A stretch of 28,249 bases of DNA from a virus, in IMG/VR virus record IMGVR_UViG_3300027906_002301, positions 1-28,249 of that record; one strand, 5' to 3'. Of the stretch, positions 2,624 through 27,800 are shown piece by piece. Both the position numbers and the translations under genes were made by a program. The notes below the pieces were generated by a model, which made no database searches, was not told the DNA's origin, and was given only the letters and a program-made list of their open reading frames with translations. Positions within the stretch are counted from its first letter, which is position 1. Each line of letters opens with the position of its first letter.

Positions 2624-3043
2624 ATGAGTCAGAATTATCTAAAAAACAAAAGTAAAATTACTGCAAGAAGATGGTACACTGATATTGATTTAAATATCAC
2701 ACCTCATCCTTCTTCTGGTGACTTAGTTTTAAAGCAAGATATAGATGCAGTTAAAAGGTCAATAAGAAATATCATGTTAACTAACAATTATGAGAGACCT
2801 TTCAAACCAAACTTTGGTGCAAATCTTAGGGGACTCCTATTTGAACTTGCAGATGACTTAACAAAGTTTGAAATAAGGTCACAGATAATTGAAGCAATAA
2901 CTCAATTAGAACCTAGAGTTTCTATTGAAGAGATATATTTAAACAATTCAAGGGCAAACACAATGCATGTTAACTTGCATTATGGAATCAGAGGTGTACA
3001 AGAACCTCAAGAAATAGAAGTTATACTACAGAGAATACGATAA
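2624..3043 (+). CDS. gp25: Baseplate wedge protein gp25 (GPW/gp25 family)
   Basis: gp25 is a small wedge protein of contractile tails, with relatives in type VI secretion (TssE) and phage P2 (gpW). It helps join the inner baseplate to the first sheath ring. The 139-aa product shows the family pattern throughout: DLVLKQDIDAVKRSIRNIML near residues 30-50, ERPFKPNFGANLRGLLFE with Asn63-Phe64-Gly65, and the near-invariant Glu96-Pro97-Arg98 within QLEPRVSIEEI. Length is close to T4 gp25 (132 aa). The stop codon overlaps the start of gp6 by one base, implying coupled translation of two partner wedge proteins. The GAAGGGA upstream lies rather far from the ATG, so initiation here may be modest. Confidence 0.95.
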   Translation: MSQNYLKNKSKITARRWYTDIDLNITPHPSSGDLVLKQDIDAVKRSIRNIMLTNNYERPFKPNFGANLRGLLFELADDLTKFEIRSQIIEAITQLEPRVSIEEIYLNNSRANTMHVNLHYGIRGVQEPQEIEVILQRIR

Positions 3044-4914
3044 TGGCAACAGTAAAAAGTTCACAAGTCAATATTACCGATTTAGATTTCGATGATATTG
3101 CATCCAATTTAAAAGAATATCTTAAAGGTCAGACGACTCTTAAAGACTACAACTTTGAAGGTAGTAATATTAGTTTACTCATAGACCTTCTTGCATACAG
3201 TTCACATGTGTCCGCGTTTAATGCAAATATGGTTGCGTCTGAATTGTTTTTAGACACTGCACAAATAAGAAAGAATGTAGTATCTCGTGCAAAAGAGATT
3301 GGTTATACTCCTACTAGTGCAACTGCTTCTTCATCAATAGTTGACTTAACAGTGAACAATCCTTTGATTGGTGGAAATACACCTTCATCATTAACTCTTA
3401 ATAGAGGACATAAATTTAAAACAACTTATGATGGATTCGTATTCCCATATGTATTATTAGAAACAAAAACAATTAGTCCATTAAATGGTATCTTTAAATT
3501 TGAAGACCTTAAGTTATCTCAAGGGACAATGAACTCAGATATCTTTGCATATAATGGTCAGATACAAAATCAAAGATTTCCATTAACAGAAAGTTTAGTA
3601 GACACTACAAGTGTTACAGTTACAATATCATCTACTGGTGGTTCAACTTCTGCGTGGACACAATCAACTGATATTAGTTCAGTGGACAAAGATAGTAAAG
3701 TATGGTATGTTCAAGAGAATGACCAAGGTCTCTTTGAAATATATTTTGGTGATGGTGTTATTAGTGCAGAACCTTTAGATGGAGATACAATTACAATCTC
3801 ATACTTGGTAACAAACGAAACACATACAGAAGGTGCAAGTATATTTACAATGACTGATGCAATAGCAGGAAATTCAGATGTAACTATTACATCTAAAGAG
3901 GCATCCTCTGGTGGTAAAGATAAAGAAGGAATTGAATCAATTAGATTTGCAGCCTCCAAGTTCTATACCTCACAAAACAGATTAGTAACAGTAGACGATT
4001 ACAAATCTAAACTACAAACTTTATATCCAGGCGCAGATTCAATTGCAGTCTGGGGTGGAGAAGATAACAACCCACCACAATATGGAAAGATATTTATTTC
4101 TATTAAACCTTCTCAGAATGTAAACAAACTAACAAGTTCAGAAAAGGTTTTGTTAAGAGATAAGTTGCGTTCATTAAATATGTTAACAGTCAGACCAGAG
4201 TTGGTTGATGCAAATATAATTGATATTATAATTGATTGTAACTTTAAATTCAATCCTCGTGCAACAACTAAAACTGCATCTGAATTAGAAACATTAGTAA
4301 GGGCTGCAATCGTTACACACGACAGTACTTACTTAAGTGGTTTTGATAGTATCTTTAGGCACTCAGTTCTAACATCAGATATAGACAGTGCAGAATCTTC
4401 GATTCTTTCGAACATTACAACTATCAAACTTCGTAAGTCAATTTCACCTACATTAAGTCAGTCATTAGGATATACTGTAGAGTTTGGAAGTGGTAATTCA
4501 TTCCATAGTCCTAATGTAGGATACAATAAAGCAAATGGTGGTATAACTACCACAACAGGATTTAAAGTATCTGGGTATACAGATACATACTACTTTGATG
4601 ATGATGGAGAAGGTAATCTCCGAAGATATTCATTTAGTGGTTCAACAAGAGTCTATGCAGATACTCAAGCAGGAACTGTAGACTATACAAATGGTAAAAT
4701 AACTGTAAATGGAATAAACATAATAGAGACATCTAATACAGATGATACTATTTACTTTACAGTAATTCCGAATTCATATGATGCAGTTGCATACAGAAGT
4801 AATCTTCTAGATATCAACACATCATTGATAAGTGCAACTGGAGTCGCAGACTCTATTGCATCTGGTGATACGAGTGCTGGGGTTGGATATACATCCTCTT
4901 CTAGTTACTCCTAA
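3043..4914 (+). CDS. gp6: Baseplate wedge protein gp6 (baseplate J family)
   Basis: gp6 is the core wedge protein that dimerises to form the ring around the hub in T4-like baseplates. Residues about 13-100 carry the characteristic N-terminus (FDDIASNLKEYLKGQ, DYNFEGSNISLLIDLLAY, ELFLDTAQIRKNVVSRAKEI). The middle shows baseplate-J-like elements (EIYFGDGVIS; GKDKEGIESIRFAASKFY; NRLVTVDDYKSKLQTLYPG; VWGGEDNNPPQYGKIFISIKP). The length of 623 aa is close to T4 gp6 (660 aa). The C-terminal part, residues about 480-600, is beta-rich (YYFDDDGEGNLRRYSFSG, AGTVDYTNGKITVNG), as in marine T4-like relatives. The ATG shares one base with the gp25 stop codon and lacks a strong ribosome site, so it probably depends on coupling. 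The call is confident. Confidence 0.94.
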   Translation: MATVKSSQVNITDLDFDDIASNLKEYLKGQTTLKDYNFEGSNISLLIDLLAYSSHVSAFNANMVASELFLDTAQIRKNVVSRAKEIGYTPTSATASSSIVDLTVNNPLIGGNTPSSLTLNRGHKFKTTYDGFVFPYVLLETKTISPLNGIFKFEDLKLSQGTMNSDIFAYNGQIQNQRFPLTESLVDTTSVTVTISSTGGSTSAWTQSTDISSVDKDSKVWYVQENDQGLFEIYFGDGVISAEPLDGDTITISYLVTNETHTEGASIFTMTDAIAGNSDVTITSKEASSGGKDKEGIESIRFAASKFYTSQNRLVTVDDYKSKLQTLYPGADSIAVWGGEDNNPPQYGKIFISIKPSQNVNKLTSSEKVLLRDKLRSLNMLTVRPELVDANIIDIIIDCNFKFNPRATTKTASELETLVRAAIVTHDSTYLSGFDSIFRHSVLTSDIDSAESSILSNITTIKLRKSISPTLSQSLGYTVEFGSGNSFHSPNVGYNKANGGITTTTGFKVSGYTDTYYFDDDGEGNLRRYSFSGSTRVYADTQAGTVDYTNGKITVNGINIIETSNTDDTIYFTVIPNSYDAVAYRSNLLDINTSLISATGVADSIASGDTSAGVGYTSSSSYS

Positions 4915-8400: not shown

Positions 8401-10413
8401 ATTTTAGAGGAAGGTACAGTTGCATCTGGAGAAGAAGATGTATTCTATGCAGATGAACAAAATGTAATTCTAGAATCTGGAGAAGGTGTTGCAGTAACAG
8501 AAAGATTCCTTTCAGACGATAGATTAAGATTAAATATAACTACAACAGGTATGTCACCTGCTGGTTCAAGAACATTTACGATTGGTGAAACAGTATCACA
8601 GAATCAATTTAAAACTTCAAGTGGAGATATTGCAACGATTACAGGTAGAGTTGTAGATAGAGAAAGAGATGGAAGTGGTAATTTACTTGCAGACCCAACT
8701 TATATAATCATTGACCAAATAACACCAGACCACACTGCAATCAAACAGTACATATCAGAAGGTGGAAGAGGTGGTATCTGGGGATGGTTCATGGAGACCA
8801 GTGGTGATTGGAAAACAGACCAGTCAGATACAGACATAGAATTTGTACATGGTATTGTTGGTGCCTCTTCTGGTAAGAAAGCAATTCTTAATTCTGTAGT
8901 AGATAACAATGTTAAAACAGACCAAGGTTCTGGTCAAGCATTTATTGTTGGTGAAGATATTACTGAATCAGATGTTGGATTATACGATAGGATTATTCGT
9001 GCAAATGTACAAGTGCATGGACATAAGGTAGAAAAAGAAATAGAGATATATCCTCATTATGCACATCACAGAATATATTATACCACACTTAACAATGCAA
9101 TTACAATAGGACAAACAATTAAAAACAATGGTGTATTGGGTCGTGTTATGGAACACGATACAGTCAATAAGTTTATTATTGTCTGGTCTGCTTCAGATGA
9201 ATTTGGTGCAAACATAGGAAGTTTCACTGCAAGTGCAGTAACAAACGAAGCAGGAAATACAACACACTTTACTGCAACTACAGTAGAACTACATCATGTC
9301 CACGAAAGAATACTTGATTTCTCTGATGGACATTATACTACAGTTACTACTCCATCTAGACCATCAATATCAGTTGACCCAAATGCACATACTCTTTATA
9401 AATCTGAATTCTACGATGGTGAGACAAGACAACATAGAAAGAACATTACAATACTACAAACATTTGCAACTGCAACTGCAAGGTCTGGTAGAACATTATC
9501 AGTTGTTCCAGATATTAATGAAGTTGTAAATCAACATGGTAAAAGAGGAAGTGGTGCAACAACTGCTATAGTACAAACAGGTGGACTGGATTGGGGTGAA
9601 ACAATTAAGAGTGCAAACAGAGATTCTATAATCAATAACCTTGCAACAGGAAATACTAATTACCTAGTTCCATCCGATGCAAAACGAATCAACTCAGTTG
9701 CAAATGTTGATGAAGAGTTTATAATTACAGAAGATGGTTTATATCTAATAGAAGAGACAGACCATGGTTTCTTAATGGCAGAACCAGAACCAGAAAGATA
9801 CAATTCTGTTACTACATCCGATGGTCACTATTATGTTGGTGATTTGTGGACAGTAGACCCAACAGAAGAACTAACATTAGAAACTGGTGATAGACTTGCA
9901 TTAGAAGATGCAACAGATATAGAAAAGAATGAAAGGTTTGTGACCGAGAGGTCATTTAACTTGGGTTCATACTTTATGAAATCCGAAGTACAAGATACAC
10001 TTGTATATGAGGATGGTACAAGAATAATCCAAGAGAATGCAATATCATTTGGTGAACCAGTCGAAAGACTAGGCCCTACACTAGGTGACCTTGCAAAAAT
10101 AGGTTTCTCTCAATCACTTGAGATTGAAGATAGACTTAGATTAGAATCTGGAAATGCAGTTGGAACAACTCCAACTTCAAGTAACGGCTGGGATAAGGGT
10201 GATTTAATCCTTATGGAAAATGGTGTTCCACATGGACATTCAGATTACGAAGGTTCAGTTGGTGGAAGGATTCTACATGAAGCACCTTATGAAGGTGTTA
10301 AAATTAGTGATATAAGTACTTTATATCCAAATGAAAGTATTAATGATTTACAAGAACACATTGGAAGAAGAATGGTATTAAATTATCCAGCTTCTGTTCA
10401 ATCTGGTATATAA
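5479..10413 (+). CDS. Giant baseplate wedge protein with gp7-like domain (1644 aa)
   Basis: The N-terminal 250 residues include LLPEYISEEGQGLKKFLSAY, FLEKG, then NLLDYADVDKTTGDFLEYFR (about 161-180), ADKRLLAKHINSIYLAKGS and YDFLFRVLYNEDIDIIYP. The last matches, from memory, the T4 gp7 stretch STKGIEASYKFLFKVLYNEEVEIE near gp7's C-terminus. Near residues 895-934, YVIKVGQSINNYRSVVQQLLNPAGTIFFGEVAI recalls the YYVMKIKSNLP...FVHPVGFGFIAI block that follows in gp7. About 650 residues of beta-rich modules lie between these blocks and about 700 after, including GETVTSGSTTGILV-type units and many LxLExG motifs (LILEDG, VILESG, LTLETG). The order before gp8 fits the T4 order gp6-gp7-gp8. AAGGA at 5467-5471 supports the start. 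A wedge role is likely; equivalence to gp7 is partial. Confidence 0.82.
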   Translation: MPILNDRLVDQLDELLPEYISEEGQGLKKFLSAYFDFLEKGILIHKQGTDLDQIGLEDGEGSVLQETATFSPSPLDSARFIYEQDSLGQSQTGSWEIGEYVVGSTSGATARIDVIGSTTNKLYIEIFTEAQFLPDETIVGQNSGYTAKVNSFEGGALFAANNLLDYADVDKTTGDFLEYFRKDFMPSIDTKILADKRLLAKHINSIYLAKGSMASYDFLFRVLYNEDIDIIYPKDQMIAPSDSKWSEYTVLNLYSTKNLLEYEKGKIVKKDGDQNIITEIQADTISRLEMSGETENIYRVVIMEPYIGSLSIGDSVELQSRESSLKFHEATVRGIISDLDKEEGNVLVAMENETGFVSTESDNTEGFHLENEEAGDIILLESATQSDNTLNEVHGKTPILVLETVNTTSTTAVIGGALKDEEISIGSLYTPSENVQVNIPQSELGVGKEARTIVGQVNDGKVEKIIVDPSNRGTGYSDGDLVVFDNRATGGTLGMGEVTSTSGDMLLESGTTFGSFEFIATAGQTTFTGRDRYNNILVYDPEKVMVRVKRANVSQTIAAQGGGVPFTVFEEVKGVANVGLNGTSIVFTGTYANASHANYVGGANTIIEVFAEPEETTLILEDGLQVTGENKIIYDQSGANPTGAISKVRVKTSGVGYTSLPKIYPGGEVFYNEDLDYTPSATKSNFIIGETVTSGSTTGILVDHDKGADKLIIGKLQTTTDTTTFSIGDTITGSSSGTTCTVKQNSFTTGVGANLLAYGKSIGTIGQLRVIQPGNHFDKSNGIPDFKHKFIFGRASANPVVDTTLTGDFSKATGTVTSVNGDLNLITITPTTGMFKVNETVTASDGKTFQILEGNPATVSGKHNTISRIDGNYTSDIGFPSVTSQRIQDSKFYQNFSYVIKVGQSINNYRSVVQQLLNPAGTIFFGEVAITNNLDGSAETYRAGANDAGFDGDRVTRSFVPTLYIGSKIDPAKIILEEGTVASGEEDVFYADEQNVILESGEGVAVTERFLSDDRLRLNITTTGMSPAGSRTFTIGETVSQNQFKTSSGDIATITGRVVDRERDGSGNLLADPTYIIIDQITPDHTAIKQYISEGGRGGIWGWFMETSGDWKTDQSDTDIEFVHGIVGASSGKKAILNSVVDNNVKTDQGSGQAFIVGEDITESDVGLYDRIIRANVQVHGHKVEKEIEIYPHYAHHRIYYTTLNNAITIGQTIKNNGVLGRVMEHDTVNKFIIVWSASDEFGANIGSFTASAVTNEAGNTTHFTATTVELHHVHERILDFSDGHYTTVTTPSRPSISVDPNAHTLYKSEFYDGETRQHRKNITILQTFATATARSGRTLSVVPDINEVVNQHGKRGSGATTAIVQTGGLDWGETIKSANRDSIINNLATGNTNYLVPSDAKRINSVANVDEEFIITEDGLYLIEETDHGFLMAEPEPERYNSVTTSDGHYYVGDLWTVDPTEELTLETGDRLALEDATDIEKNERFVTERSFNLGSYFMKSEVQDTLVYEDGTRIIQENAISFGEPVERLGPTLGDLAKIGFSQSLEIEDRLRLESGNAVGTTPTSSNGWDKGDLILMENGVPHGHSDYEGSVGGRILHEAPYEGVKISDISTLYPNESINDLQEHIGRRMVLNYPASVQSGI

Positions 10414-10466: not shown

Positions 10467-11924
10467 ATGGCAGCGATTATTACAGAAAAATTCAGACTGC
10501 ACAACGCAAAGGAATTCAAACAGAGTGCTACCGAAACTGGTAATGCAATGTATATGTTTATTGGAAGACCTACTGCGTGGTCAGATGATAATAGTCCACC
10601 TACTCCAGTTGACTCTTTAAACGATGAGTATGATGCATATGCAAATATGACAGCTTTGAAGAAAGTTTCATCAACAGATGTAAGTCATGCCATTATCCGA
10701 AGAGACTGGACAAGTGGGACAAAGTATGACGAGTATCGTCATAACTACAAATCAGGCAACACTTCAACCAGTGGTGCTACAACCCTATGGGCATCAACAT
10801 TTTATGTTGTAACCAGCGATTATAATGTATACAAATGTATATCTAATAATGGTGGTGCAGATTCAACAGTAATGCCTACAGGAACAACAACATCAGTAAC
10901 CACATTATCTGATGGATATAAATGGAAGTTTATGTATTCCATTTCTGCATCCGATGTTATCAAATTTGTAACATCAGACTTTATACCAGTTAAGACACTT
11001 GGTAGACAACTTGCAGTTGAAGGTGATTCTGGAGCATTAGGTGCTCAAGCATCAGACGACAACTCTGCACAATACCATGTAGAAGATGAAGCAGTTGATG
11101 GTGCAATTTACCATGTAAGAGTTACAGCAGGTGGTTCTTCATATGGTACAAACTCAACAACTAGAACAGTTGCTGTCAGTGGAGATGGTGCAAGTGCAGT
11201 AATGACTTTCACAGTTGCATCTGGTGCTATTACAGCAGCATCAATAACTACTGCTGGAACTGGTTATTCAGTTGCAAATATTGACAATGCATTAGTTCAA
11301 GCTGCAACAAGTTCATCTGGAACAGGTGCATTATTTGATGTAATCGTCAGTCCTAAGAATGGACATGGTGCAGACCCAGTTGAAGAACTAGGTGGAAACT
11401 ATGTTATCGTTAACTCAAGACTTGAGTATGCAGAAGGAAGTGGAGACTTCCCAACTGATAACGATTTCAGACAAATAGGTCTTATTGTAAACCCAACCAA
11501 TATTGGTGGTCATACTTTATCAAGTGCAGTAACACTTAGTGCATTAAATAGATTCACAATGGCAAGTGGTGCTCAAATGCCTAATGTAGATGACTATATT
11601 GCAAATGCTGGAACTATCACAACAGGAACTGCTGTTGGAAAAGTCGTATCAGTAGATGCAACAAACAGACATATTTACTACTTACCAGATGTAGATTCAG
11701 TTGGAAACTATGGTGCATGGGCAAATTCAAACCCAGTTCATAATGGAACTGCAAGAGGTTCTTTAGGAAGTTCTTTAGGAAACCTTGCATCAAGTGGTGC
11801 TGTAAGTGCAGCATACCCAGAAGTCAGAAGAAATTCTGGTGACATCGTGTACTTAGAAAATAGAGGTGCAGTGGCAAGGGCTGCTGACCAGATTGAGGAC
11901 ATCAAACTAATAATTGAAATGTAG
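10467..11924 (+). CDS. gp8: Baseplate wedge protein gp8, with an inserted beta module
   Basis: gp8 is a dimeric wedge protein joining gp6/gp7 with the outer baseplate. Hallmarks shared with T4 gp8 are ITEKFRLHNAKEF at the N-terminus, a FIGRPTAWSD element matching T4 FGRSEPWS, RRDW at residues 78-81, DGYKWKFMYSI matching T4 DGYVWEYLFEI, FRQIGLIVNP from residue 334, and the C-terminal SGDIVYLENRGAV...ADQIEDIKLI matching T4 SGEMIYMENR...DQTEEINILF. At 485 aa it is about 150 residues longer than T4 gp8 (334 aa). Much of the excess is a Gly/Ser/Thr-rich beta insert at residues about 214-297 containing GTGYS, similar to units in both neighbouring giant proteins. Transcription probably starts at the tandem late promoters just upstream. 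Confidence 0.92.
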   Translation: MAAIITEKFRLHNAKEFKQSATETGNAMYMFIGRPTAWSDDNSPPTPVDSLNDEYDAYANMTALKKVSSTDVSHAIIRRDWTSGTKYDEYRHNYKSGNTSTSGATTLWASTFYVVTSDYNVYKCISNNGGADSTVMPTGTTTSVTTLSDGYKWKFMYSISASDVIKFVTSDFIPVKTLGRQLAVEGDSGALGAQASDDNSAQYHVEDEAVDGAIYHVRVTAGGSSYGTNSTTRTVAVSGDGASAVMTFTVASGAITAASITTAGTGYSVANIDNALVQAATSSSGTGALFDVIVSPKNGHGADPVEELGGNYVIVNSRLEYAEGSGDFPTDNDFRQIGLIVNPTNIGGHTLSSAVTLSALNRFTMASGAQMPNVDDYIANAGTITTGTAVGKVVSVDATNRHIYYLPDVDSVGNYGAWANSNPVHNGTARGSLGSSLGNLASSGAVSAAYPEVRRNSGDIVYLENRGAVARAADQIEDIKLIIEM

Positions 11925-11935
11925 GATAACTAACA

Positions 11936-14900
11936 GTGGCTCAAAAAACAGACCTTAATGTTAGTCCTTATTATGATGACTACGCAGACTCTAAGAATTT
12001 TCATAGAGTTCTGTTTAAACCATCAGCTGCAATACAGGCTAGGGAACTAACACAATTACAATCAATACTTCAAAATCAAATTGAGAGGTTTGGTTCTCAT
12101 ATCTTCAAGGAAGGTTCAATCATCCTTGGTGCAAGAACCAACTATGATAATCAATACTTTGGAGTAAGGGTTGAGGATACAAATCCAAATGGTAGTGGGG
12201 TACAGGCTACTGAATCTTTTCGTGCTGACTCAATAGGTAAGTTCTATCAAGGAGTAACCTCTGGTGTTGTAGGTAAAGTTGTAAATTCAAGTCAGAAGAC
12301 AACTACAGACCCACTAACACTACATGTCAAATATCAAAGAACTGGTAATGTTGGTTCTACATTCTATACAGAATTCCAAGATGGTGAAACATTAAACGAA
12401 GTAACCCAAGATTCAAATGGTCTTGGTGGGTACTCAACTGCATCATCAAACAATCAATTTAAAGTTTACTCAGTTACAGGTTCTATAAATGTAGGGTCTA
12501 TGGTTGGAACCGCTGCAAACATATCCGAAGGTATTATATACACAAGAGGAATGTTCGTCAAGGTTCCAGCTCAAACAGTAATCTTAGAAAAATATTCTAA
12601 CACACCATCTTACAAAGTAGGTCTTGATGTTGCAGAAACACTTACATCCTACACCGAAGATGCATCATTGTTAGATAATGCACAAGGTTCAACAAACGAG
12701 AATGCGCCAGGTGCTGATAGATTAACAGTCACATTAACTCTTGCAAAGAAAACAATCAGTTCTACAAACTCAACAGACTTTATAGAATTGATGAGAGTTG
12801 CAAATGGTGAAGTAGTTAAGAAACAAGAAATTACAGAATACAACAGACTCCAAGAAACAATGGCAAGAAGAACCTTTGATGAGTCTGGTGATTACACATT
12901 ACAACCTTTTACTTTAGGATTTAGAGAACATTATAACGACCTATCTAACAATGGTGTTTATACATCTACATCTACTCCTGCTGGAGACACTAGTAAATTT
13001 ATTGGAGTAGTATCTTCTGGTAAAGCATATGTAAGAGGATACGAAGTAGACAAACAAGTCCCTTCATTTATAACATTTGATAAAGCAAGAACAACACAAT
13101 CAAAAGATAATGTTGCATCTGCATTTAGAATTGGTAACTTCTTAAAAATTGAGAATGTTTATGGTCAACCAGACATCAGTTCAAGTGGAGATTTAAGTGC
13201 ATACTCAACAGTAACTTTACAGGACACTGCTGCTGGTAGTGTTTCTGGTAATGGAAGTGCAACAGGAAGTGCAATAGGATATGCAAGAGTAAGAGCATAC
13301 GAAAACTTTGGTAGAAACGAAGGTAACACTGCTGATGTAGACTCATTACATTTATTCGATGTACAGATGTTTACTAAGTTAACAGTTGCATCAACTTCAT
13401 TAACAAAAGGACAAAAGATTAAAGGTGCAACCTCTGGTGCAACAGGTGTTGTTGCAGTTACAGTATCGAGTGGAACAACAGTATTATTACATAGTGTTGT
13501 AGGAACATTCCAGAGTGGTGAGAACATAGAGAAAATGCAAACTAGTTCTGGTGCAGTAGCAATCAGTGCAGTTAGAACTTACGATGTAGGTAGAATAAGA
13601 AGTGTATTCCAAGATAGGGGTGCAAACCAATTCCAAGAATTTGGTGCTGATGTTGTATTAGAAGATAACTTCACTTTAACAGGCAGTGGAACAGTCACAG
13701 TAGACAACGATTCTTCTGCTGATGCAATAACAGGTATTGCATCTAAGTTTACAAGTGAACTTATTGAAGGAGATAAATTACTATTAGCTAATGGTGCAAC
13801 TACTGTCGTTACATTGGTAGACTCAAATACAGATGTTAATGTAACAGATATTGCTGGAACAACTGGTGATGTTATCAGTGGTGCAATCGTAAGACAAAGA
13901 GCAAAATTTTATAAACAAGACCAAACAGTTGCAATCTCTGGTTTACCTAATAGTGGTATTAAAGACATATCAATCGAAACAGAGATTGTTCAAAGACAAG
14001 AAATTGCAACAGTATCATCAAACAAGTTTACAATAAGTTCAACAGATGGAACTTATGTTGCATTTAGTAAAGATGCATATTCTGTAACTTGTGATAATAA
14101 TGGTGCTAAATATGCTCTAGCTTCTAGTAACTTAGACATTGATAATTCTTCGAATGCTGGTTCTGTTGAATTTACATTATCTGGTATTGCAGATAATACT
14201 AAAGTAAAAGTTATCAGTACAGTTCAAAGAGGTTCAGTAACAGCATCAACAAAAAGTTTAGTTAAAGGTGCAGCTATTGGAGTTGAAACTGCAAACTCAA
14301 CATCAAACTATGGTAACTCATATCAACACAATGATATTACACTTGGTGTTGCAGATGTATATTCAGTAAGAGGAATTTTTGAGGGTGGTAACGCAATATC
14401 ATCTGGTGGTGCAGCTGTATCAACAGACCCAATCACACCTTCATTCACATATACTGCTGATGCTGGAAGTAATGCATTATCTACAGAAGGAACAGAAGTT
14501 GTAGGTAGTGTTTCAAATGCAAGAGGTATTCTAATTGAGAATGACTCTAACACTTGTTACTTCTATTACAAAAAAGGTTCAGTCAAATTCCAGAATGGAG
14601 AAGGGATAACATTTACAGATGGAACTGCAAAAGCAGGAACAATAAGTCAACTATCATCAGGCTCAAAAGAGATTACAGATAACTTCTACTTTGATGATGG
14701 TCAAAGAGATGGGTATTATGGAATTGCAAAAATTACTAGAAAGAAAAATGCACCAGCACCTAATGGTAAATTATTAATCGTATTTGATTACTTTACACAT
14801 AGTGCTGGAAATGTATTTACAGGTGCATCTTATCCTAGTTTGGAACTTGAAGATGTTCCAAATTATGTTGCAGATAGATTTGACCCAAGTGCATCCTTTG

Positions 14901-17900
14901 ATGCAGATGGTGATTTTAATCTTGCAGACTCAATCGACTATAGACCAGTTGCAGCTAGACTACTTACCAATGCACCGAGTTCTGATTTATCGGCTGCACA
15001 AAATATTTCTAGTGTTTCAACATTCCCAATGTCATATGATTCAAATGCATTTGAAGGAAATGGTTCAAAGTCTAATGACCTTGCACAAATAGGAACTAAC
15101 ATTACTGTAGACTACGACCATTATCTACCTAGAATAGATAGAGTATTCTTAACATCAATAGGTGATTTTGTAGTGGTTACAGGTGAACCATCAGACAATC
15201 CTAAGAAGGGTGCTAAAGTTGATAATGCAATCGAGGTTGCAGAACTATTCATTCCAGCGTACACACCAGATGCTGGTGATGTAGAAACAAAACTAATTCA
15301 ACATAGAAGATATACCATGAGAGATATTGATGGTATACAAAGAAGACTTACTCAATTAGAAACAGCAGTTTCACTTTCTATGTTAGAAGAGAAAACAGAA
15401 ACATTACAAGTTTTAGATGATGAAGGGTTTGATAAATTCAAATCTGGATTCGTAGTTGATGCATTTAAAGGTCATGGAGTTGGAGATGTATTCCATCCAG
15501 ACTATGGTATTGCAGTAGACCAAGGAGAAGGTATTGCAAGACCATCTCACAGAACAAATTATTTTGACCTAGAATACAACAGTGGTGTATCATCTAATAT
15601 TACAAAGAGTGGAGATTTAATATCTCTACCATTTACAGAGACAGAATACTTAAGTGCTAATAAAGCATCTCAACAAGTTAATGTCAACCCATACGATGTT
15701 GCAAACTTTGTAGGGAGAATGGAACTAAGTCCAGACAAGGATGTCTGGCATGACATGGAACAACTACCAAGTATTACAAGTAACAATGAAGGAAACTTTG
15801 ATGCAGTACTTGCTGGAGTTACTTTAGGGACAGTATGGAATGACTGGCAACAATCATGGGCTGGAACACCAGTAGTCACAACAACAAGTGATACAGTTAC
15901 AAGAGGTATGATGCGTGGTGATGAACCAGAAGAGTTTGAAGTAGTTAGGGGTGGTAGAAGAATACCAATTGGAAGAAGAGGTCTTCGAGGAAGAGGAAGA
16001 GGAAGAACAGGAATTCAAACTACAGTTACAAGAACTATACCTACAAGAGAAAGAAGAACAGGTATCGTAACTAGTGTTGTAGAAGATATTACAACTACAA
16101 GAAACGATAGAGTGGTTGGTGTATCTGCTGTCAACTTCATGAGAACAATTGATATCACCATGAATGGTGAATTACTAAAACCGAATACTGCATTGAATGT
16201 GTTCTTTGATAACATCAATGTCAATGCACATTGTACTCCAGCATCTGCAACTTATGGTGTAGGTGGTGCAACTGCAAAAGGAACACAACTAGTCACAGAC
16301 AACCAAGGTAAGTTAACTGCAACATTTACAGTACCAAACGATGATACATTAAGATTTGAAACTGGTATTAGAACTCTTAAAGTTACCGACACTGTAGCAG
16401 TAGATGATGCATTATCAACTACTTCTGCATTTACAAACTTCATGGCAAATGGTTCATTAACATCTACACAAACAGAAGTTATAAACACAAGAAATGGTAG
16501 AACAGTTACAGAATCAATTAATGCATCAAGAGAAGGACAACTTGTTTCTAGTAATACTACAACAAGATGGATAGACCCACTTGCACAATCATTCTTGGTA
16601 GAACAAGAAGAAGGTGTATTTATTAGTTCAGTAGAAGTTTACTTTAGTGCAAAAGATGGTGGTGGATTACCAGTCACATGTTCAATAAGACAAATGTTGA
16701 ATGGTTCACCTACACAGAAAATTATGCCATTTGCAGAGAAGACATTATATCCAAGTGAGATATCAGTCAGTGCAAATGCGAGTACAGCAACCAAGTTTAC
16801 ATTCCCAGCACCAGTTTATTTGAACCCAAATACAGAATATTGTTTTGTACTTGAATCAAATTCAAATGCATTCTTAACATGGGTTGGTCAGATGGGAGAC
16901 TTTGATATATTAACAAATGAACCTATTGATGAACAACCATACGCTGGTGTATTATTCAAGTCTCAAAACAGTTCGACTTGGACACCAGAACAAATGCAAG
17001 ACTTGAAATTTAACATCAACAGATGTAAGTTCCAAACTTCTGGTAAAGCAGTTTTAGAAAATACTGTTATAAACAGTAAGTTATTAAAGAACAATCCAAT
17101 AGAAACTATTTCTACAGATAGAGATAGAATTAAAGTTCATCATCAATCACATGGTATGTATGATACTGATTCTAATGTAACAATCTCTGGTGTTGAAGGA
17201 GATAAGGACAATGGTATCTTATCAGTAACTACAAGTGCTGGAACTGGTGGTGTTGTAAATACATACACTGGCGTGACTGGAACAGGAGCTGGAGATGCAA
17301 CTTTCGATATCAAACTTGATACAACTACAAGTATTGAGTGGATTAAGATTAACAACCCAGGCTATAACTTTGCAGTAGGTAATACAATTACGATTCCAAG
17401 AAGTGCAGTTGGTGGAACTGGTGCAACAACATTCTTAACAATAACAGTTGCATCTGTAGATGATACTTTAGGTGGAATACCAATTAGTAAGATTAACACA
17501 ACACATGGAGATGGAAACTTTAAATCATATGATATGGATTCATATGAGATTGATGTAACTTTAGGTGACCATCTTGGTTCAACAGAATCAACAAGAGCAG
17601 GTGGAAGTTCAGTTATTGCATCTGAAAATATGTACTACGATGTGATTCATACTTTAGTACCAAACATCATTTATCCTAAAACTTCATTGTCATCACAATT
17701 CTTTAAAACAAGTACAGGTGGTGTAAATGCAAATTCTGGTGGAAACAGTTATACTAGAAATACTGCAAGTCAAAATATTGTCTTGAACGATAATAACTTT
17801 ATGGTTACATCTGGTATCGTTGCATCACAAATCAACGAAACGAATGAGATGGCATCTGCAAAATCATTTAGAATAGAACTTGACTTAATATCTGAATCTG

Positions 17901-18382
17901 ATTTCGTATCACCAGTTGTTGATGTTGCATCTATAGGTGCAAACACAATCATGAATAGAATTAACCATGTTACTACAACTAGTGATATTGCAACTAATAC
18001 ATCTTTAGTTGCTGGAACAGAACCAGATGGAGATAACAATGCATCCATCTATTGTACAAGATTAGTACAGTTAGAGAACCCAGCAACACAATTAAAAGTT
18101 ATCTTTGATGGATTTAGAGCAGCTGGTACTGCTGATGGTGAGATTAAAACATATTACAAATTATTAAAATCAGATAGTACATTACCAGTAGAAGAATTGG
18201 GATGGACTGAGTTTGGAACAGATAATGTTCCAGATGCAGATTCAAGTAAATTTAGGTCATACGAATATGATGCAACTAACCTAGAAGACTTTGTAGGATT
18301 CTCGGTTAAGGTTGTAATGAAGAGTAAAGACACAACCATGCCTTGTGCTATAAAGGCATTTAGAGGATTGGCACTTGCATAA
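11936..18382 (+). CDS. Giant DUF4815-type virion structural protein (2148 aa)
   Basis: Residues about 5-65 (DLNVSPYYDDYADSKNFHRV, then SAAIQARELTQLQSILQNQI and SHIFKEGSIILG) match the N-terminus I associate with DUF4815 proteins, large virion proteins of T4-like marine phages encoded near gp8. The central region is a chain of beta modules, including KGQKIKGATSGATGVVAV. Conserved late blocks are DRVVGVSAVNFMRTIDITM from residue 1391 and DPLAQSFLVEQEEGVFISSV from residue 1547. Residues 1338-1357 hold nine arginines and seven glycines. The start is GTG with AGGA at 11923-11926; no early in-frame ATG exists. The position corresponds to outer-wedge/fibre-attachment genes (T4 gp9-gp11), so a baseplate-to-fibre connector is a reasonable guess, but its biochemical role is unknown. 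Confidence 0.85.
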   Translation: MAQKTDLNVSPYYDDYADSKNFHRVLFKPSAAIQARELTQLQSILQNQIERFGSHIFKEGSIILGARTNYDNQYFGVRVEDTNPNGSGVQATESFRADSIGKFYQGVTSGVVGKVVNSSQKTTTDPLTLHVKYQRTGNVGSTFYTEFQDGETLNEVTQDSNGLGGYSTASSNNQFKVYSVTGSINVGSMVGTAANISEGIIYTRGMFVKVPAQTVILEKYSNTPSYKVGLDVAETLTSYTEDASLLDNAQGSTNENAPGADRLTVTLTLAKKTISSTNSTDFIELMRVANGEVVKKQEITEYNRLQETMARRTFDESGDYTLQPFTLGFREHYNDLSNNGVYTSTSTPAGDTSKFIGVVSSGKAYVRGYEVDKQVPSFITFDKARTTQSKDNVASAFRIGNFLKIENVYGQPDISSSGDLSAYSTVTLQDTAAGSVSGNGSATGSAIGYARVRAYENFGRNEGNTADVDSLHLFDVQMFTKLTVASTSLTKGQKIKGATSGATGVVAVTVSSGTTVLLHSVVGTFQSGENIEKMQTSSGAVAISAVRTYDVGRIRSVFQDRGANQFQEFGADVVLEDNFTLTGSGTVTVDNDSSADAITGIASKFTSELIEGDKLLLANGATTVVTLVDSNTDVNVTDIAGTTGDVISGAIVRQRAKFYKQDQTVAISGLPNSGIKDISIETEIVQRQEIATVSSNKFTISSTDGTYVAFSKDAYSVTCDNNGAKYALASSNLDIDNSSNAGSVEFTLSGIADNTKVKVISTVQRGSVTASTKSLVKGAAIGVETANSTSNYGNSYQHNDITLGVADVYSVRGIFEGGNAISSGGAAVSTDPITPSFTYTADAGSNALSTEGTEVVGSVSNARGILIENDSNTCYFYYKKGSVKFQNGEGITFTDGTAKAGTISQLSSGSKEITDNFYFDDGQRDGYYGIAKITRKKNAPAPNGKLLIVFDYFTHSAGNVFTGASYPSLELEDVPNYVADRFDPSASFDADGDFNLADSIDYRPVAARLLTNAPSSDLSAAQNISSVSTFPMSYDSNAFEGNGSKSNDLAQIGTNITVDYDHYLPRIDRVFLTSIGDFVVVTGEPSDNPKKGAKVDNAIEVAELFIPAYTPDAGDVETKLIQHRRYTMRDIDGIQRRLTQLETAVSLSMLEEKTETLQVLDDEGFDKFKSGFVVDAFKGHGVGDVFHPDYGIAVDQGEGIARPSHRTNYFDLEYNSGVSSNITKSGDLISLPFTETEYLSANKASQQVNVNPYDVANFVGRMELSPDKDVWHDMEQLPSITSNNEGNFDAVLAGVTLGTVWNDWQQSWAGTPVVTTTSDTVTRGMMRGDEPEEFEVVRGGRRIPIGRRGLRGRGRGRTGIQTTVTRTIPTRERRTGIVTSVVEDITTTRNDRVVGVSAVNFMRTIDITMNGELLKPNTALNVFFDNINVNAHCTPASATYGVGGATAKGTQLVTDNQGKLTATFTVPNDDTLRFETGIRTLKVTDTVAVDDALSTTSAFTNFMANGSLTSTQTEVINTRNGRTVTESINASREGQLVSSNTTTRWIDPLAQSFLVEQEEGVFISSVEVYFSAKDGGGLPVTCSIRQMLNGSPTQKIMPFAEKTLYPSEISVSANASTATKFTFPAPVYLNPNTEYCFVLESNSNAFLTWVGQMGDFDILTNEPIDEQPYAGVLFKSQNSSTWTPEQMQDLKFNINRCKFQTSGKAVLENTVINSKLLKNNPIETISTDRDRIKVHHQSHGMYDTDSNVTISGVEGDKDNGILSVTTSAGTGGVVNTYTGVTGTGAGDATFDIKLDTTTSIEWIKINNPGYNFAVGNTITIPRSAVGGTGATTFLTITVASVDDTLGGIPISKINTTHGDGNFKSYDMDSYEIDVTLGDHLGSTESTRAGGSSVIASENMYYDVIHTLVPNIIYPKTSLSSQFFKTSTGGVNANSGGNSYTRNTASQNIVLNDNNFMVTSGIVASQINETNEMASAKSFRIELDLISESDFVSPVVDVASIGANTIMNRINHVTTTSDIATNTSLVAGTEPDGDNNASIYCTRLVQLENPATQLKVIFDGFRAAGTADGEIKTYYKLLKSDSTLPVEELGWTEFGTDNVPDADSSKFRSYEYDATNLEDFVGFSVKVVMKSKDTTMPCAIKAFRGLALA

Positions 18383-18575
18383 GAAAGTAAAAGGACATGA
18401 CCATCTTGTTAAAGATGAATTTAGTAAAGCAGTTATAAATACTGATACTGATGGTTATGCATTGTATAAAAAAAGACAAATACTTATGCAAACAAAGAAT
18501 AACGAAATACAAGAAATTAAAAACGAAATGTCAGAATTAAAACTAATGATGACTAAAGTATTGGAAAGAATATAA
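18375..18575 (+). CDS. Small coiled-coil protein, TTG start
   Basis: This 66-residue frame starts at TTG, overlapping the end of the preceding giant gene by eight bases; AGAGG at 18362-18366 is well placed for that start. The next in-frame ATG (18487) would remove more than half of the product. Residues 8-20 read HDHLVKDEFSKAV and residues 21-33 INTDTDGYALYKK. The rest is a charged helix with heptad character (NEIQEIKNEMSELKLMMTKVLERI), predicted to form a coiled coil. I recall similar small HDHLVKD/YKKRQ proteins at this locus in other T4-like marine phages, without known function. Its stop overlaps the next ATG by one base, so it is coupled to the fibre gene. It may be a trimerisation or assembly factor; this is inference. 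Confidence 0.75.
   Translation: MHKKVKGHDHLVKDEFSKAVINTDTDGYALYKKRQILMQTKNNEIQEIKNEMSELKLMMTKVLERI
18434..18441 (+). promoter_or_regulatory. Internal late promoter-like TATAAATA
   Basis: A perfect TATAAATA lies inside the small coiled-coil gene, about 135 bases upstream of the fibre gene at 18575. It could give the fibre genes an extra late start, but it may also be a chance result of the codons used (gtt ata aat act) in AT-rich DNA. Confidence 0.3.
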
Positions 18576-20995
18576 TGGCAAAGAATGTTAGTAACAACGA
18601 AACCTTAGAAGTATTAAGAACTTCCTATAACGACCTCGTAGATGAGGTTGGTGGATTAGGTACACTTAGAACAAGTCAAAAAGGTTCTATCGTAGATGCA
18701 GTCAATAGTATTGTTGACCAGTATTTCTTTTTCCAAGAGTTTGAATATGATGGTTCAGATGGTGCAAGTTCAAATAAAATATTCAGTGGTGCAGACAACT
18801 TTGGTGAATCATTAAACTATTCTGTTAATAGACTACTAGTATTTAAAAATGGTACATTATTAAGAAGTGGTACAGATTATTCTGCAACGAATGGTACAAG
18901 TATAACATTACAAACATCCGCTGGAAATACAGACATTATAAGAATAGTATCCTTTACTGGTTCATACGAAGGGGTTGCTGGTGCAACTCAAGCTAGTACA
19001 ACACAATGGACTAAGACTGGTGCTGGTTCTATTTACAATCATGACACCACAGGTGGTGTTGTAATCAATGCAGATGAAATTGGAGTTGTTACTGCACCAT
19101 CATCTGGAATTGGAATACAACTTGAAGCAGATGGTGATGACATTTTATTAAATGTTGGTGGTGCTTCAAACAAGGTTGATGTTAATGGTAATTTAAGTTT
19201 AAGAAGTGGAATGAAACTTCAAAAGGCAGGTGGTGATATTGCTATAGGTGATATTCAAGGATTACAGGCTGCAGTTAGAGGAGCTTTAAGTGCAAGTGGA
19301 GATATCTCATATAATAATTCAACAGGTGTAATATCATTTACAGCTGCTACTGCACCAGTGACAAGTGTTGCTGGTAAAACAGGTGCAGTCACACTTGCAG
19401 AGGCAGATGTTTCATTTACAGGTGGTAGTTTACAAGAAAGAGTACAGGACATTATAGGTGGATGGGTAAGTGGTTCTGGTTCAACTACAGTAACATATGA
19501 TGATACAGCGAATACATTAGTAGTATCATCAACAGGTAAAACTACAGAAGAGATTCAAGACATTGCTGGTGCAATGTTCTCAAGTAATACTGAAACTGGT
19601 ATTACTGCAACATACGAAGATGGAGATGGCACTATTGATTTAGTAATTGCAGATGCATCTACATCTGCAAAAGGTATAGCAAGTTTTGACAGTGGTGATT
19701 TTGATGTATCCAGTGGTGCAGTTTCACTTGATGCAACACAAACTATTCCAACACAATCTAGTCAGAGTGGTAAATACTTAACAACTAATGGTAGTGCATT
19801 AAGTTGGGGAACAGTTACACAAACAGATACAACTTATTCACAAGCATTTGTAGATAGTTCTGCCGATGCAATTCTTAGATTAACTGCTGGTGGTTCTGGG
19901 TCTGGAAACGATGACCTTAAATTTGTAGCAGGAAGTAATATAACTTTAACACCAAGTGGTGATAACTTAACTATTTCATCAACAGATACTAACACACAAT
20001 TAACAACAGAACAGGTTGAAGACATTGTGGGTGATATGGTAAGTGGTGGAACTGAAACTAGAATTGGTGTTACTTATGATGATGTAAATGGAAGATTAAA
20101 CTTTGTTGTAGATGATATGACTGCAAATACAACTTATGCAGAAGCAACATCATCTGCATTAGGTCTTATTAAAATAGGTTTTACAGAAAGTGGTAAGAAC
20201 TATCCAGTAGAATTGTCTAGTGGTAAAGCGTATGTTAATGTTCCATGGACAGATACAAATACAGATACCAACACTACGAACTGGAACTTTAATGCAAATG
20301 GTGGTACAAACGAAAACATATCTGCTGGGGAAACATTAAGATTTAATGGTGGTGGTGCAACTACTGTATCAAGAAGTGGTAATACTCTTACAATTAGTTC
20401 AACAGATACCAATACTGATACCAACACTACATATTCAACTGCAACAGCATCTACATTAGGTCTTGTTAAAATTGGATTCACAGAAAGTGGTAAAAACTAC
20501 CCAGTTGAATTATCAAGTGGTCAGATGTATGTCAATGTTCCATGGTCAGATACAAATACAGACACTAACACAACATATAGTGCTGGTACAGGTATGTCAT
20601 TATCTGGAACTACATTCTCTATTGGTCAAGCAGTTGCAACTAGTTCTACAGTAACATTTGGAGAAGTTAGGTCAACAGGTAATGTTACAGCATATTACTC
20701 AGATGATAGATTAAAAACAAGATTAGGTAGTATAAAGAATCCAGTAGATAAAGTATGTGCATTAAATGGATTCTACTTCAAACAGAATGAAAAGGGTAAT
20801 GAAATTACTCCACAATATGCAGACCAACTACAAGTTGGTGTATCTGCACAAGAAATTAAATCAGTTCTTCCAGAAGTTGTAGTTGAAAATGCAATTGAAG
20901 GTCAATACGATAGTGTCCACTATGATAAAGTAGTCCCTCTACTTATTGAAGCAATCAAAGAACTTAAATCAGAAATAGAATCTTTAAAGTCTTAA
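18575..20995 (+). CDS. Tail fibre protein with C-terminal S74 intramolecular chaperone
   Basis: The 806-aa protein begins NETLEVLRTSYNDLVDEVGGL...KGSIVDAVNSI, an N-terminus I associate with fibres of T4-like marine phages. Residues about 58-129 form a module (LLVFKNGTLLRSGTDYSATNG) also found three times in the 23528 gene. The shaft holds three copies of a VQDIVG...TYEDGDGTIDL unit and a duplicated 39-residue block (KIGFTESGKNYPVELSSG). Residues 709-806 are a peptidase S74 / endosialidase chaperone domain: Ser709-Asp-Asp-Arg-Leu-Lys, then LNGFYFKQNE, QVGVSAQEIKSVLPEVV, YDKVVPLLIEAIKELKSEI. In this family the domain trimerises the fibre and then cuts itself off at the serine. The ATG overlaps the upstream stop by one base. 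A fibre role is very likely; the receptor is unknown. Confidence 0.88.
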   Translation: MAKNVSNNETLEVLRTSYNDLVDEVGGLGTLRTSQKGSIVDAVNSIVDQYFFFQEFEYDGSDGASSNKIFSGADNFGESLNYSVNRLLVFKNGTLLRSGTDYSATNGTSITLQTSAGNTDIIRIVSFTGSYEGVAGATQASTTQWTKTGAGSIYNHDTTGGVVINADEIGVVTAPSSGIGIQLEADGDDILLNVGGASNKVDVNGNLSLRSGMKLQKAGGDIAIGDIQGLQAAVRGALSASGDISYNNSTGVISFTAATAPVTSVAGKTGAVTLAEADVSFTGGSLQERVQDIIGGWVSGSGSTTVTYDDTANTLVVSSTGKTTEEIQDIAGAMFSSNTETGITATYEDGDGTIDLVIADASTSAKGIASFDSGDFDVSSGAVSLDATQTIPTQSSQSGKYLTTNGSALSWGTVTQTDTTYSQAFVDSSADAILRLTAGGSGSGNDDLKFVAGSNITLTPSGDNLTISSTDTNTQLTTEQVEDIVGDMVSGGTETRIGVTYDDVNGRLNFVVDDMTANTTYAEATSSALGLIKIGFTESGKNYPVELSSGKAYVNVPWTDTNTDTNTTNWNFNANGGTNENISAGETLRFNGGGATTVSRSGNTLTISSTDTNTDTNTTYSTATASTLGLVKIGFTESGKNYPVELSSGQMYVNVPWSDTNTDTNTTYSAGTGMSLSGTTFSIGQAVATSSTVTFGEVRSTGNVTAYYSDDRLKTRLGSIKNPVDKVCALNGFYFKQNEKGNEITPQYADQLQVGVSAQEIKSVLPEVVVENAIEGQYDSVHYDKVVPLLIEAIKELKSEIESLKS
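20159..20572 (+). repeat. Duplicated 117-bp coding block in fibre gene
   Basis: Bases 20159-20275 and 20456-20572 encode near-identical 39-residue blocks (GL[IV]KIGFTESGKNYPVELSSG, then YVNVPW[TS]DTNTDTNTT), offset by 297 bases, an exact 99 codons. Differences are mostly synonymous, so the duplication is old enough to have drifted while the protein was conserved. Between the copies is a Thr/Asn/Gly-rich stretch. Confidence 0.85.
20699..20995 (+). other. Peptidase S74 / intramolecular chaperone domain
   Basis: These 98 codons plus stop encode the self-cleaving C-terminal domain of the fibre, starting at the candidate catalytic Ser709 in YYSDDRLK. The arrangement (SDDRLK, aromatic FYF strand, VGVSAQE, LPEVV, final long helix) follows the family order, and its length is typical. 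Confidence 0.85.
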
Positions 20996-24866: not shown

Positions 24867-27800
24867 ATGCCAACTAAAGCAAGATATCTTGCAGACCTTT
24901 TGAATGCATCTGGAGAACTAGACTCCACAGGTGCTATTGAAGCAATACAAGACCAAATTTCAAGTCTGTTTGCAGCTGGAACACATACAGGTATATCATT
25001 CAGTTATAATGATTCGTCTGGTACATTTAGTGCAACAGTTGGAGCAGAATTTATTCAAGATACAGTTGGAGCTATGTTTAGTTCCAATACAGAGACAAAT
25101 ATAACTGTAGGTTATGAAGATGGTGATGGCACCATTGACCTTGCAGTAGAGCAACAATTAAACAACACATCAGCACCATACTACCATAAGATTGTAGTTA
25201 CAGTTGCTGGTGGTAAACTTGTATTAGATGGTGGTTCACAACAAACAGCAAAACTTTCTCCTAATGTTGTTTATAGATTTGACCAATCAGCAGCGAGTAA
25301 TGCAACACATCCTATAAGATTCTCCACAACCAGTGATGGTACACATAACAGTGGTGCAGAAATGTCTGCTGGATATACAATTTATAACAAGTCTGGAACA
25401 GCAGGTAATGCTGGTGCATATGTAGAAGTATGTTTTGAACAAGATGCAATGAATCCACATTACTACTATTGTGCAAACCACAGTGGAATGGGTGGAAATG
25501 TTCACATAGGTGAAGTTCCATCTACAGACCAATTAACAGAAGGCTCAACAAACCTTTACATGACCAACGAAAGAGTTCAAGACATCGTTGGTGGAATGGT
25601 ATCATCTAACACTGAAAGTGGTATATCAGTGTCATACGAAGATGGAGATGGTACTTTAGATTTCAATGTTAATGACCCAACCATCTCTTTAACTGGAGAT
25701 GTGACTGGTTCTGCAACAATGACAGATTTAGGAAGTACTGCAATTGCAACTACTATTGCAGCTAACAGTGTTGCACTAGGAACAGACACAACAGGAAATT
25801 ATGTTGCAACAGTCGCTGGTACAGCAAACGAAATTACTGTTGCTGGTTCTGGTTCTGAAACAGCAGGTGTGACAATCTCATTACCAGATGATGTCACAAT
25901 AGGAAATGATTTAACAGTCACAGGAGATGTTGGTGCAGCCAACTTAACACTATCTGGAAACTTAACTGTTTCTGGTTCTACAACTACAGTGTCATCTTCT
26001 ACCTTACAGGTAACAGATGGTGCAGTTAAAGTTGCAAAAGATAACGCTGCAGATGCAATCGACTTTGGTTTATATGGTCAGTATGTTGATGGTTCAACTA
26101 CAAAATACGCAGGACTATTATGGGATGCATCTGAATCAAACAAATTTAGATTATTCCATGGTAACCAATCAGAACCTACAACCACAGTTAATACAAGTGG
26201 AACAGGACATTCAACAGGTACTTTACTTGCAAATGTTGAGGGTTCATTAACAGGTAATGCTTCAACAGCAACAGCACTTGCAACTGCAAGAACAATATCA
26301 CTTGCTAGTGACTTGTCTGGTTCTGCATCTTTTGATGGAACTGGAAATATTACAATCAATGCAACAATTGCTGCCGACTCAGTTGCATTAGGAACAGACA
26401 CAACTGGTAACTACATGGCACAGGTTGCAGCTGGTGAAGGTATTGATATATCTCACACACAAGGTGAAGGTTCTACTGCAACAATATCAGCAGAACTTGC
26501 AACAGAAACAAATCCCGGCGTAGCAACATTTGATGGAACAGACTTTACAGTAAGTTCTGGAGATGTTACAGTTAATGCAGAAAGAATTCAAGACATCGTA
26601 GGTGCAATGGTATCAAGTAATACTGAAACAGGTATTGCAGTGACTTATGAGGATGGAGATGGTACTCTAGACCTTGCAGTAAGTCTTTCATCATTTGATA
26701 CAGACGATTTATCAGAAGGCTCAAGTAATCTTTATCATACATCAGAAAGAGTTGCAGATGTTGTAGGTGCAATGGTAACCTCAAATACCGAGAGCGGTAT
26801 TTCTGTAACCTATGACGATTCAGATAATACACTTGACTTTACAGTAGCAACACTTAACCAAAACACAACTGGTTCTGCAGCTACTTTAACAACTGCAAGA
26901 ACTATACATGGTGTATCATTTGATGGTAGTGCAAACATTGACTTATCAGAAACTATTCAAGACACTGTTGGTGCAATGTTCTCATCTAATACCGAGACTG
27001 GTGTCTCAGTAACTTATGAAGATTCAGATGGAACTATTGACCTTGCAGTAAGTGGTGCTGCAGCAACAATCGTATCAGACTTCACAGAAGCTGTTCAAGA
27101 TGTAGTTGGTGCAATGGTATCATCCAACACAGAAAGTGGTATAGCAGTAACATATGAGGATGGAGATGGTACTCTAGACTTTGATATTGCAGACCATACA
27201 ATTACTCTTGGTGGTGATTTATCTGGTAGTGCAACAATAACAAATGGTGCAAGTGCAACCTTAACTGCAACGATAGCTGCAACATCTGTAGAGAACAGTA
27301 TGTTAGCAGGTTCGATTGCAAATGCAAAACTTTCAAATTCAAGTATAACAGTTTCAGATGGTTCAAATACAAGTCCAGTAGCACTAGGTGGTACTTTGAC
27401 TTTTGCTGGTACTTCAAACGAAGTAGATGTTGCAGAAAGTTCTGGAACAATTACATATGGACTACCTTCTGATGTCACAATATCAAACGACTTAACAGTT
27501 AGTGGAAACTTGGTAGTTAGTGGTACAACAACTAACACTGGTGCAACAGTTTCAGATTCAAACTTTACAGGTTTATCAGATGCAAACACAGGAAACGCAA
27601 CAGACTTTGGTTTCTATGGTAAGTATGTAGAATCAACAACCACAAAATATGCTGGTTTATTCTACGATGCATCAACAGATAATACATTTAGATTATTTGC
27701 AGATACACAAACAGTACCTTCAACAACAGTTAATACAACTGCAACAGGATATACAGTAGGTACATTAGTTGCAAACATTACAGGTAATGTAAGTGGTACT

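Follow-up and report, generated by a model that had tools for sequence, protein, structure and literature searches.

In PMC7029224, which compares 31 pelagimyophage with 4 cyanomyophage genomes, VrlC is one of five proteins that all of them share, and the passages on the protein propose it as the replacement for T4 gp7 in a two-layered baseplate, though the functions of its parts are not settled. In P-SSM4, S-SM1 and HTVC008M it is a long DUF4815-type protein encoded after the baseplate wedge genes, with a variable and often Arg-rich loop at one particular place. A relative of solved structure is ORF65 of Staphylococcus phage phi812 (PDB 9euf, 9eui, 9euj), which like TmpG of phage A3R is 1152 aa long. 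The baseplate passages of PMC12886913 make no mention of ORF65, and no title about an Arg-rich VrlC loop appeared among the literature matches listed for VrlC and phage baseplates.

The locus described here lies in a virus record of 28249 bases (the window; 36% G+C) and encodes, from a GTG start, a 2148-aa protein (11936..18382, +) that, judged by profile matches and gene order, belongs to the VrlC/DUF4815 baseplate proteins, the virus being a T4-like marine myophage. It matches PF16075 (DUF4815) at 199.3 bits against a curated cut-off of 30 (E 1.2e-58), best over residues 1038-1275 (15047..15760, +), and phrog_358 at 1656.6 bits; PF16075 is likewise matched, at E up to 0.1, by 31 of the 32 proteins in alignment A2, among them that of the window. 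Relatives were found by tblastn in 1532 phage records, every one below 60% identity, led by Methylophilales phage Melnitz (36%) and followed by cyanophages, several of whose records name the protein VrlC; VrlC of P-SSM4 and S-SM1 resembles it at 33-34% identity over ~95% of the length. The region before the gene contains genes resembling gp5, gp25 and gp6, then a 156-aa ORF, the gene of a 1644-aa protein that matches baseplate-wedge families, and one resembling gp8. The gp25-like (2624..3043, +; phrog_261, E 1.9e-40), gp6-like (3043..4914, +; phrog_219, E 1.6e-157) and gp8-like genes (10467..11924, +; phrog_438, E 8.4e-140) all match families named 'baseplate wedge subunit', and the last of these directly precedes VrlC. 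The gene thus follows the wedge genes as in HTVC008M, where wedge genes and a structural protein precede VrlC at the corresponding place, and follows gp8 as in P-SSM4.

Other parts of the window deserve brief mention. Between the gp5- and gp25-like genes, a 353-aa ORF (1554-2615; net charge -32, pI 4.3) had no PHROGs or NCBIfam match at the thresholds applied. An 806-aa fibre-like protein (18575-20995) is similar over its last ~130 residues to the C-terminal region of several tail fibre families, and this end may be a self-cleaving chaperone. A 1127-aa ORF (24867-28247) that is open at the window end carries a net charge of -104 and repeated modules, for example VQDIVGAMVSSNTETGI followed by VTYEDGDGTLD.

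The feature that drew attention to VrlC is the segment RGGRRIPIGRRGLRGRGRGR, residues 1338-1357, encoded at 15947..16006 (+). The initial annotation had counted nine Arg and seven Gly there, and the count is correct: this is the top 20-residue Arg window of the protein, and nine Arg in 20 were reached in none of 2000 composition shuffles, for which the maximum was seven (in 5 of 2000). The other stop-to-stop frames of at least 100 aa on both strands of the window (n=26) contain at most four Arg in 20 residues. A thinner Arg-rich continuation, TRTIPTRERRTG, comes just after the patch, and the acidic run GDEPEEFEV (residues 1328-1336; 15917..15943, +) precedes it as had been reported, with one Val in between. 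The description of the protein as otherwise poor in Arg was overstated, Arg making up 3.8% (82 of 2148) and Lys 4.3% of its residues.

RG/RGG-rich segments are defined by several RG pairs close together, and the patch qualifies, with RGG at residues 1338-1340 and RGRGRG inside GLRGRGRGRTG. Nucleic-acid-binding segments of the RG type are Arg/Gly-rich, and this resemblance in composition is what speaks for a tip that binds nucleic acid, e.g. DNA leaving the tail. Phage DNA, however, passes inside the tail tube whereas VrlC is a baseplate protein, and a search of Pfam, PHROGs and NCBIfam named no nucleic-acid-binding family for it; we consider this reading highly improbable.

Two AlphaFold models, built from overlapping sequence sets with most sequences common to both, place the patch in context: one of residues 1040-1760 (mean pLDDT 66.0, pTM 0.38) and one of residues 1222-1710 (mean pLDDT 73.6, pTM 0.44; low confidence in the far half of the arm). 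The patch lies inside a low-confidence loop (residues 1324-1356) and has a pLDDT per 10-residue block of 31-35 in the first model and 35-38 in the second, so that the loop is probably disordered, although these low values may reflect a thin alignment (34 rows) instead. A strand predicted at low confidence (residues 1313-1323; 15872..15904, +) leads into the loop, and a long strand (residues 1357-1398; 16004..16129, +), of low confidence in its initial 25-30 residues, leads from it into an Ig-like domain. The first part of this domain would comprise residues ~1255-1285 (15698..15790, +), from fold-alignment ranges, and the second residues ~1398-1507 (16127..16456, +), from the model and fold alignments. 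A second long strand (residues 1496-1538; 16421..16549, +) would run out of the Ig-like domain to another loop before the motif DPLAQSF. Around all this stands a putative jelly-roll-like domain, with its first strands at residues ~1231-1249 (15626..15682, +), from predicted strands and the start of the aligned range, and its remainder after DPLAQSF at residues ~1549-1700 (16580..17035, +), from the match to phi812 ORF65; the limits of the first strands and of both Ig-like parts are inferred ones.

In the fold comparison behind this layout, one domain superposes closely on chain 9eui_Q, with 40% identity and an rmsd of 1.4 A over 174 residues (Z 26.4; model range 5-479). Matches to Ig-like domains had VIA-align ranges of 34-286 with ~87-92 residues aligned at Z ~6-7, and up to Z 8.9 elsewhere; at Z ~6-8.9 only a common arrangement may be shared. 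From the aligned ranges and lengths we infer that residues on either side of the arm stretch form the jelly-roll-like domain, that the Ig-like domain is nested within it, and that the patch arm is inserted early in the Ig-like domain. If the two long strands lie side by side, the loop before DPLAQSF may sit at the patch end of the arm. A longer alignment to the pre-contraction chain 9euf_0 gave an rmsd of 15.2 A over 299 residues, so that the close match concerns a single domain and an ORF65-like domain arrangement is not confirmed. PHR domains were also among the fold matches (Z 9-10), consistent with a jelly-roll-like fold; the Pfam hits to DUF3290 and PHR fell below their curated cut-offs and were rejected. 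Among predicted viral structures, the top-ranking matches were DUF4815/VrlC proteins, and no other family explaining the arm came up. The initial annotation had suggested a flexible basic linker: very low pLDDT and an Arg content kept without fixed order agree with flexibility and charge, but the tip of an arm inserted within one domain describes it better than a linker between domains.

We compared the window with 13 relatives that are 73.7-83.6% identical to it over residues 1001-1760, leaving out one identical to the window (L002), two with linkers as in L015 and L011 (L012 and L039) and three that end before the patch (L014, L016 and L018). All 14 sequences have an Arg-rich segment at this place: the basic segment (residues 1337-1361) holds 7-14 Arg and no Lys in every one of them, with 2-3 acidic residues within it in four. 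Mean pairwise identity is only 0.52 in this segment versus 0.90, 0.82 and 0.87 in three conserved flanks. The acidic segment that precedes it (residues 1311-1336) is similarly variable (0.46) and carries 3-9 Asp and Glu in all 14 sequences. In all 16 clade rows, the 20-residue stretch with the highest net charge in the protein falls in the patch linker. Absence from close relatives, named by the initial annotation as grounds for abandoning its proposal, was therefore not seen, and the comparison of composition with sequence that it had called for showed Arg content kept and order changing. Since Arg is kept while its order is scrambled, the patch may act as an electrostatic hook.

A simpler possibility is that the tip accepts nearly any hydrophilic sequence, the RG run having arisen by slippage of GGAAGA repeats in the DNA. 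GGAAGAGGAAGAGGAAGA is present in frame in the window, loop order and length vary, and the loops of distant relatives may be neutral, acidic, Lys-rich or short, all of which would be expected under such drift. Against it stand the 7-14 Arg without Lys in 14 of 14 close sequences despite a G+C content of 36%, and codon use as elsewhere in the gene (133 AGA, 10 AGG, 8 CGA and 4 CGT among patch Arg codons of the close set, in proportions equal to those over the remainder of the gene). A crude null that ignores relatedness, in which residues are replaced at random until the observed identity is reached, also predicts far fewer Arg, with a mean of 5.1 expected versus 11.2 observed in the 13 relatives. 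We have set GGAAGA slippage aside as a full explanation on the grounds of these codons and Arg counts; for the close clade drift is already disfavoured, and as a general account of the tip it is unlikely.

In the wider family the linker is far less uniform. Among 66 rows compared (16 from the clade and 50 outside it, P-SSM4 and Melnitz counted twice), the most positive window of the protein falls within it in six of the 50 outside the clade (L050, L051, L069, L081, ACG-2014g and MED4-213). Its net charge spans +17 (ACG-2014g) to -6 (L044 and L046-L048), with Melnitz at +4, HTVC008M at +3, L023 and L059 at zero, and a Lys-rich linker in L051. At 60% identity there are 29 representatives (linkers shorter than 12 residues left out), in which the Arg content of the linker has a median percentile of 0.949 among same-length windows of its own protein and reaches at least 0.95 in 14, with a Wilcoxon p of 1.8e-5 if rows are treated as independent. 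The basic residues of the linker nevertheless fall below the median of their own protein (percentile <0.5) in seven representatives. An Arg-rich arm tip is not a constant feature of the VrlC family, as the linker is net negative in eight of the 29 (L044, L046, P-SSM4, L072, S-PM2, A3R, CampHawk and LP124), and distant relatives such as L046-L048, L023, L059 and S-PM2 lack the basic tip while keeping the flanking sequence. A VrlC baseplate therefore does not need a basic tip, and these eight representatives together with the six rows outside the clade mark the dense patch as a clade-level elaboration and not a core part. The window adds a protein to a known family, and the dense Arg/Gly tip is the form that a variable loop takes in its clade.

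The most basic class of linkers (net charge of at least 7 in 20 residues) comprises six of 36 tree rows, scattered on the tree. It requires five changes, a number equalled or undercut in 160 of 500 label shuffles, and so shows no more clustering than expected by chance. It has therefore been gained or lost repeatedly, and its scatter is also a point against drift. Two further scans, one of them taking the best 80 of 316 relatives, supplied 104 distinct marine-phage proteins, and anchor patterns gave linkers from 74 of them (59 unique), the other 30 not fitting and remaining uncounted. In the 59 unique linkers the ratio of Arg to Lys is 580:12, versus 6775:5278 in the remainder of the 74 proteins, some of which are incomplete; Lys is absent from 54, and 54 are net positive, nearly always via Arg.

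A pattern resembling a motif also emerged from these linkers, and it bears on the idea that the tip is a socket which gains order once a spike, an adaptor or a tail fibre docks on it. Of the 59 further linkers, 51 contain a GRG-type core, G[RK][GA].?[RK], as do 11 of the 14 close ones, above all 500 shuffles, and the records of S-CAM22 and S-RIM50 name the protein 'baseplate wedge tail fiber connector'. That annotation is unproven, however, and the pattern was chosen after inspecting sequences from relatives that are not independent. The core is found in only seven of 43 other unique linkers and is absent from L040, L044, L046, ACG-2014g and HTVC008M, and we regard a socket as quite unlikely.

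In several virus groups (L021, L023, L051, L056, L059 and L124-L127) the VrlC relative is encoded by two adjacent ORFs, the second starting, in L124-L127, ~160 residues before its DPVAQTF motif. The loop before DPLAQSF has Pro-rich acidic inserts in some relatives. In the distant VrlC of L065, L066 and L068 (locus 8618-8812) it contains 33 Arg in a 65-residue stretch that starts with poly-Pro and ends directly before DPLAQSF. The Arg codons of this tract are mixed (14 AGA, 8 CGT, 6 AGG, 4 CGG and 1 CGC), and the tract is identical across the three, whose genes differ at 7-16 other bases. Among the matches listed in the further scan, the tract appeared only in the same contigs (L106-L108).

We hypothesize that a flexible cationic tip docks on acidic neighbouring baseplate proteins as an electrostatic hook, and give this reading a probability of about 0.4. 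Under this hypothesis, the arm would be inserted in the early part of the Ig-like domain of VrlC and end in a disordered tip, whose Gly-rich backbone, flanked by predicted strands and preceded by the acidic run, would display the Arg side chains. In the assembled baseplate this tip would dock on an acidic surface, either of an adjacent wedge subunit or of a second copy of VrlC. Such docking would need many guanidinium groups in no fixed order; a loop that is predicted to lack order, and that preserves its composition but not its sequence, suggests many weak charge contacts. The use of Arg instead of Lys would fit contacts that have to survive the salt concentration of seawater. Of the 14 computed ORF products of the window, 13 are net negative (VrlC itself at -73), the exception being the gp25-like product. 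On this count we favour an acidic surface within the baseplate and treat host polyanions as the chief rival; since acidic proteins are the rule in the window, the count picks out no single partner. The acidic segment just before the patch could also neutralise it within the chain.

Under that rival, an exposed tip would bind polyanionic groups on the host cell (acidic polysaccharide or the phosphates of LPS), aiding reversible adsorption or holding the baseplate during fibre binding. The preference for Arg over Lys, the Gly-rich chain and the fast scrambling of order would suit it, and so would the distribution of charge among hosts: many marine cyanophages have basic linkers, as does one Vibrio phage (net +6), while the three phages examined that infect Gram-positive hosts have net charges of -1 or -2. 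Those three form one clade, however, and therefore represent a single event, and the linker is likewise not basic in several phages whose hosts are Gram-negative or cyanobacterial (S-PM2 -2, P-RSM4 -5, P-SSM4 -1, S-CAM8 -1, SH19 +1 and LG08 +1). Among the three partners suggested in the initial annotation, the acidic baseplate neighbour fits best; the host polyanion is a live rival, to be held tentatively. If the hook hypothesis is true, a low-complexity patch would be selected for charge and not for sequence, and the VrlC loop would be a small element at a defined place on a solved fold, serving as an electrostatic wedge clamp or as a contact with the host surface. A broader and rather doubtful proposal is that VrlC carries a recurrently evolved, salt-tolerant Arg hook at a fixed arm tip, the charge of which lineages retune (Arg-rich, Lys-rich, neutral or acidic) to a changing polyanionic partner, notably the marine host surface, one population having moved the role to the poly-Arg tract in the second loop, maybe at the same arm end.

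Set beside the described systems, the window protein matches phi812 ORF65 in sequence (E 2.8e-53; profile E 4.6e-73) and in the fold of one domain, although ORF65 is little more than half as long and the equivalent linker of A3R (37 residues, net -2) is unlike the patch. As to T4 gp7, a PDB-chain profile search at E up to 10 gave ORF65 and one unrelated chain, and T4 chains were not among the matches listed (50 Foldseek rows), which leaves room for a similarity to gp7. P-SSM4, S-SM1 and HTVC008M have their variable loop at the same place as the patch, with a far denser Arg/Gly run in the window clade than in P-SSM4 or in HTVC008M (only +3). A further parallel is VrlC of Synechococcus phage ACG-2014g, which differs in its overall sequence (34% identity), its arrangement of Arg and the lack of an acidic run before the linker, and stands apart from the window clade on the tree. 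Its linker is nonetheless as Arg-rich as the patch at the same place (10 Arg in 20), and, as in the window clade, no other stretch of the protein is more positive.
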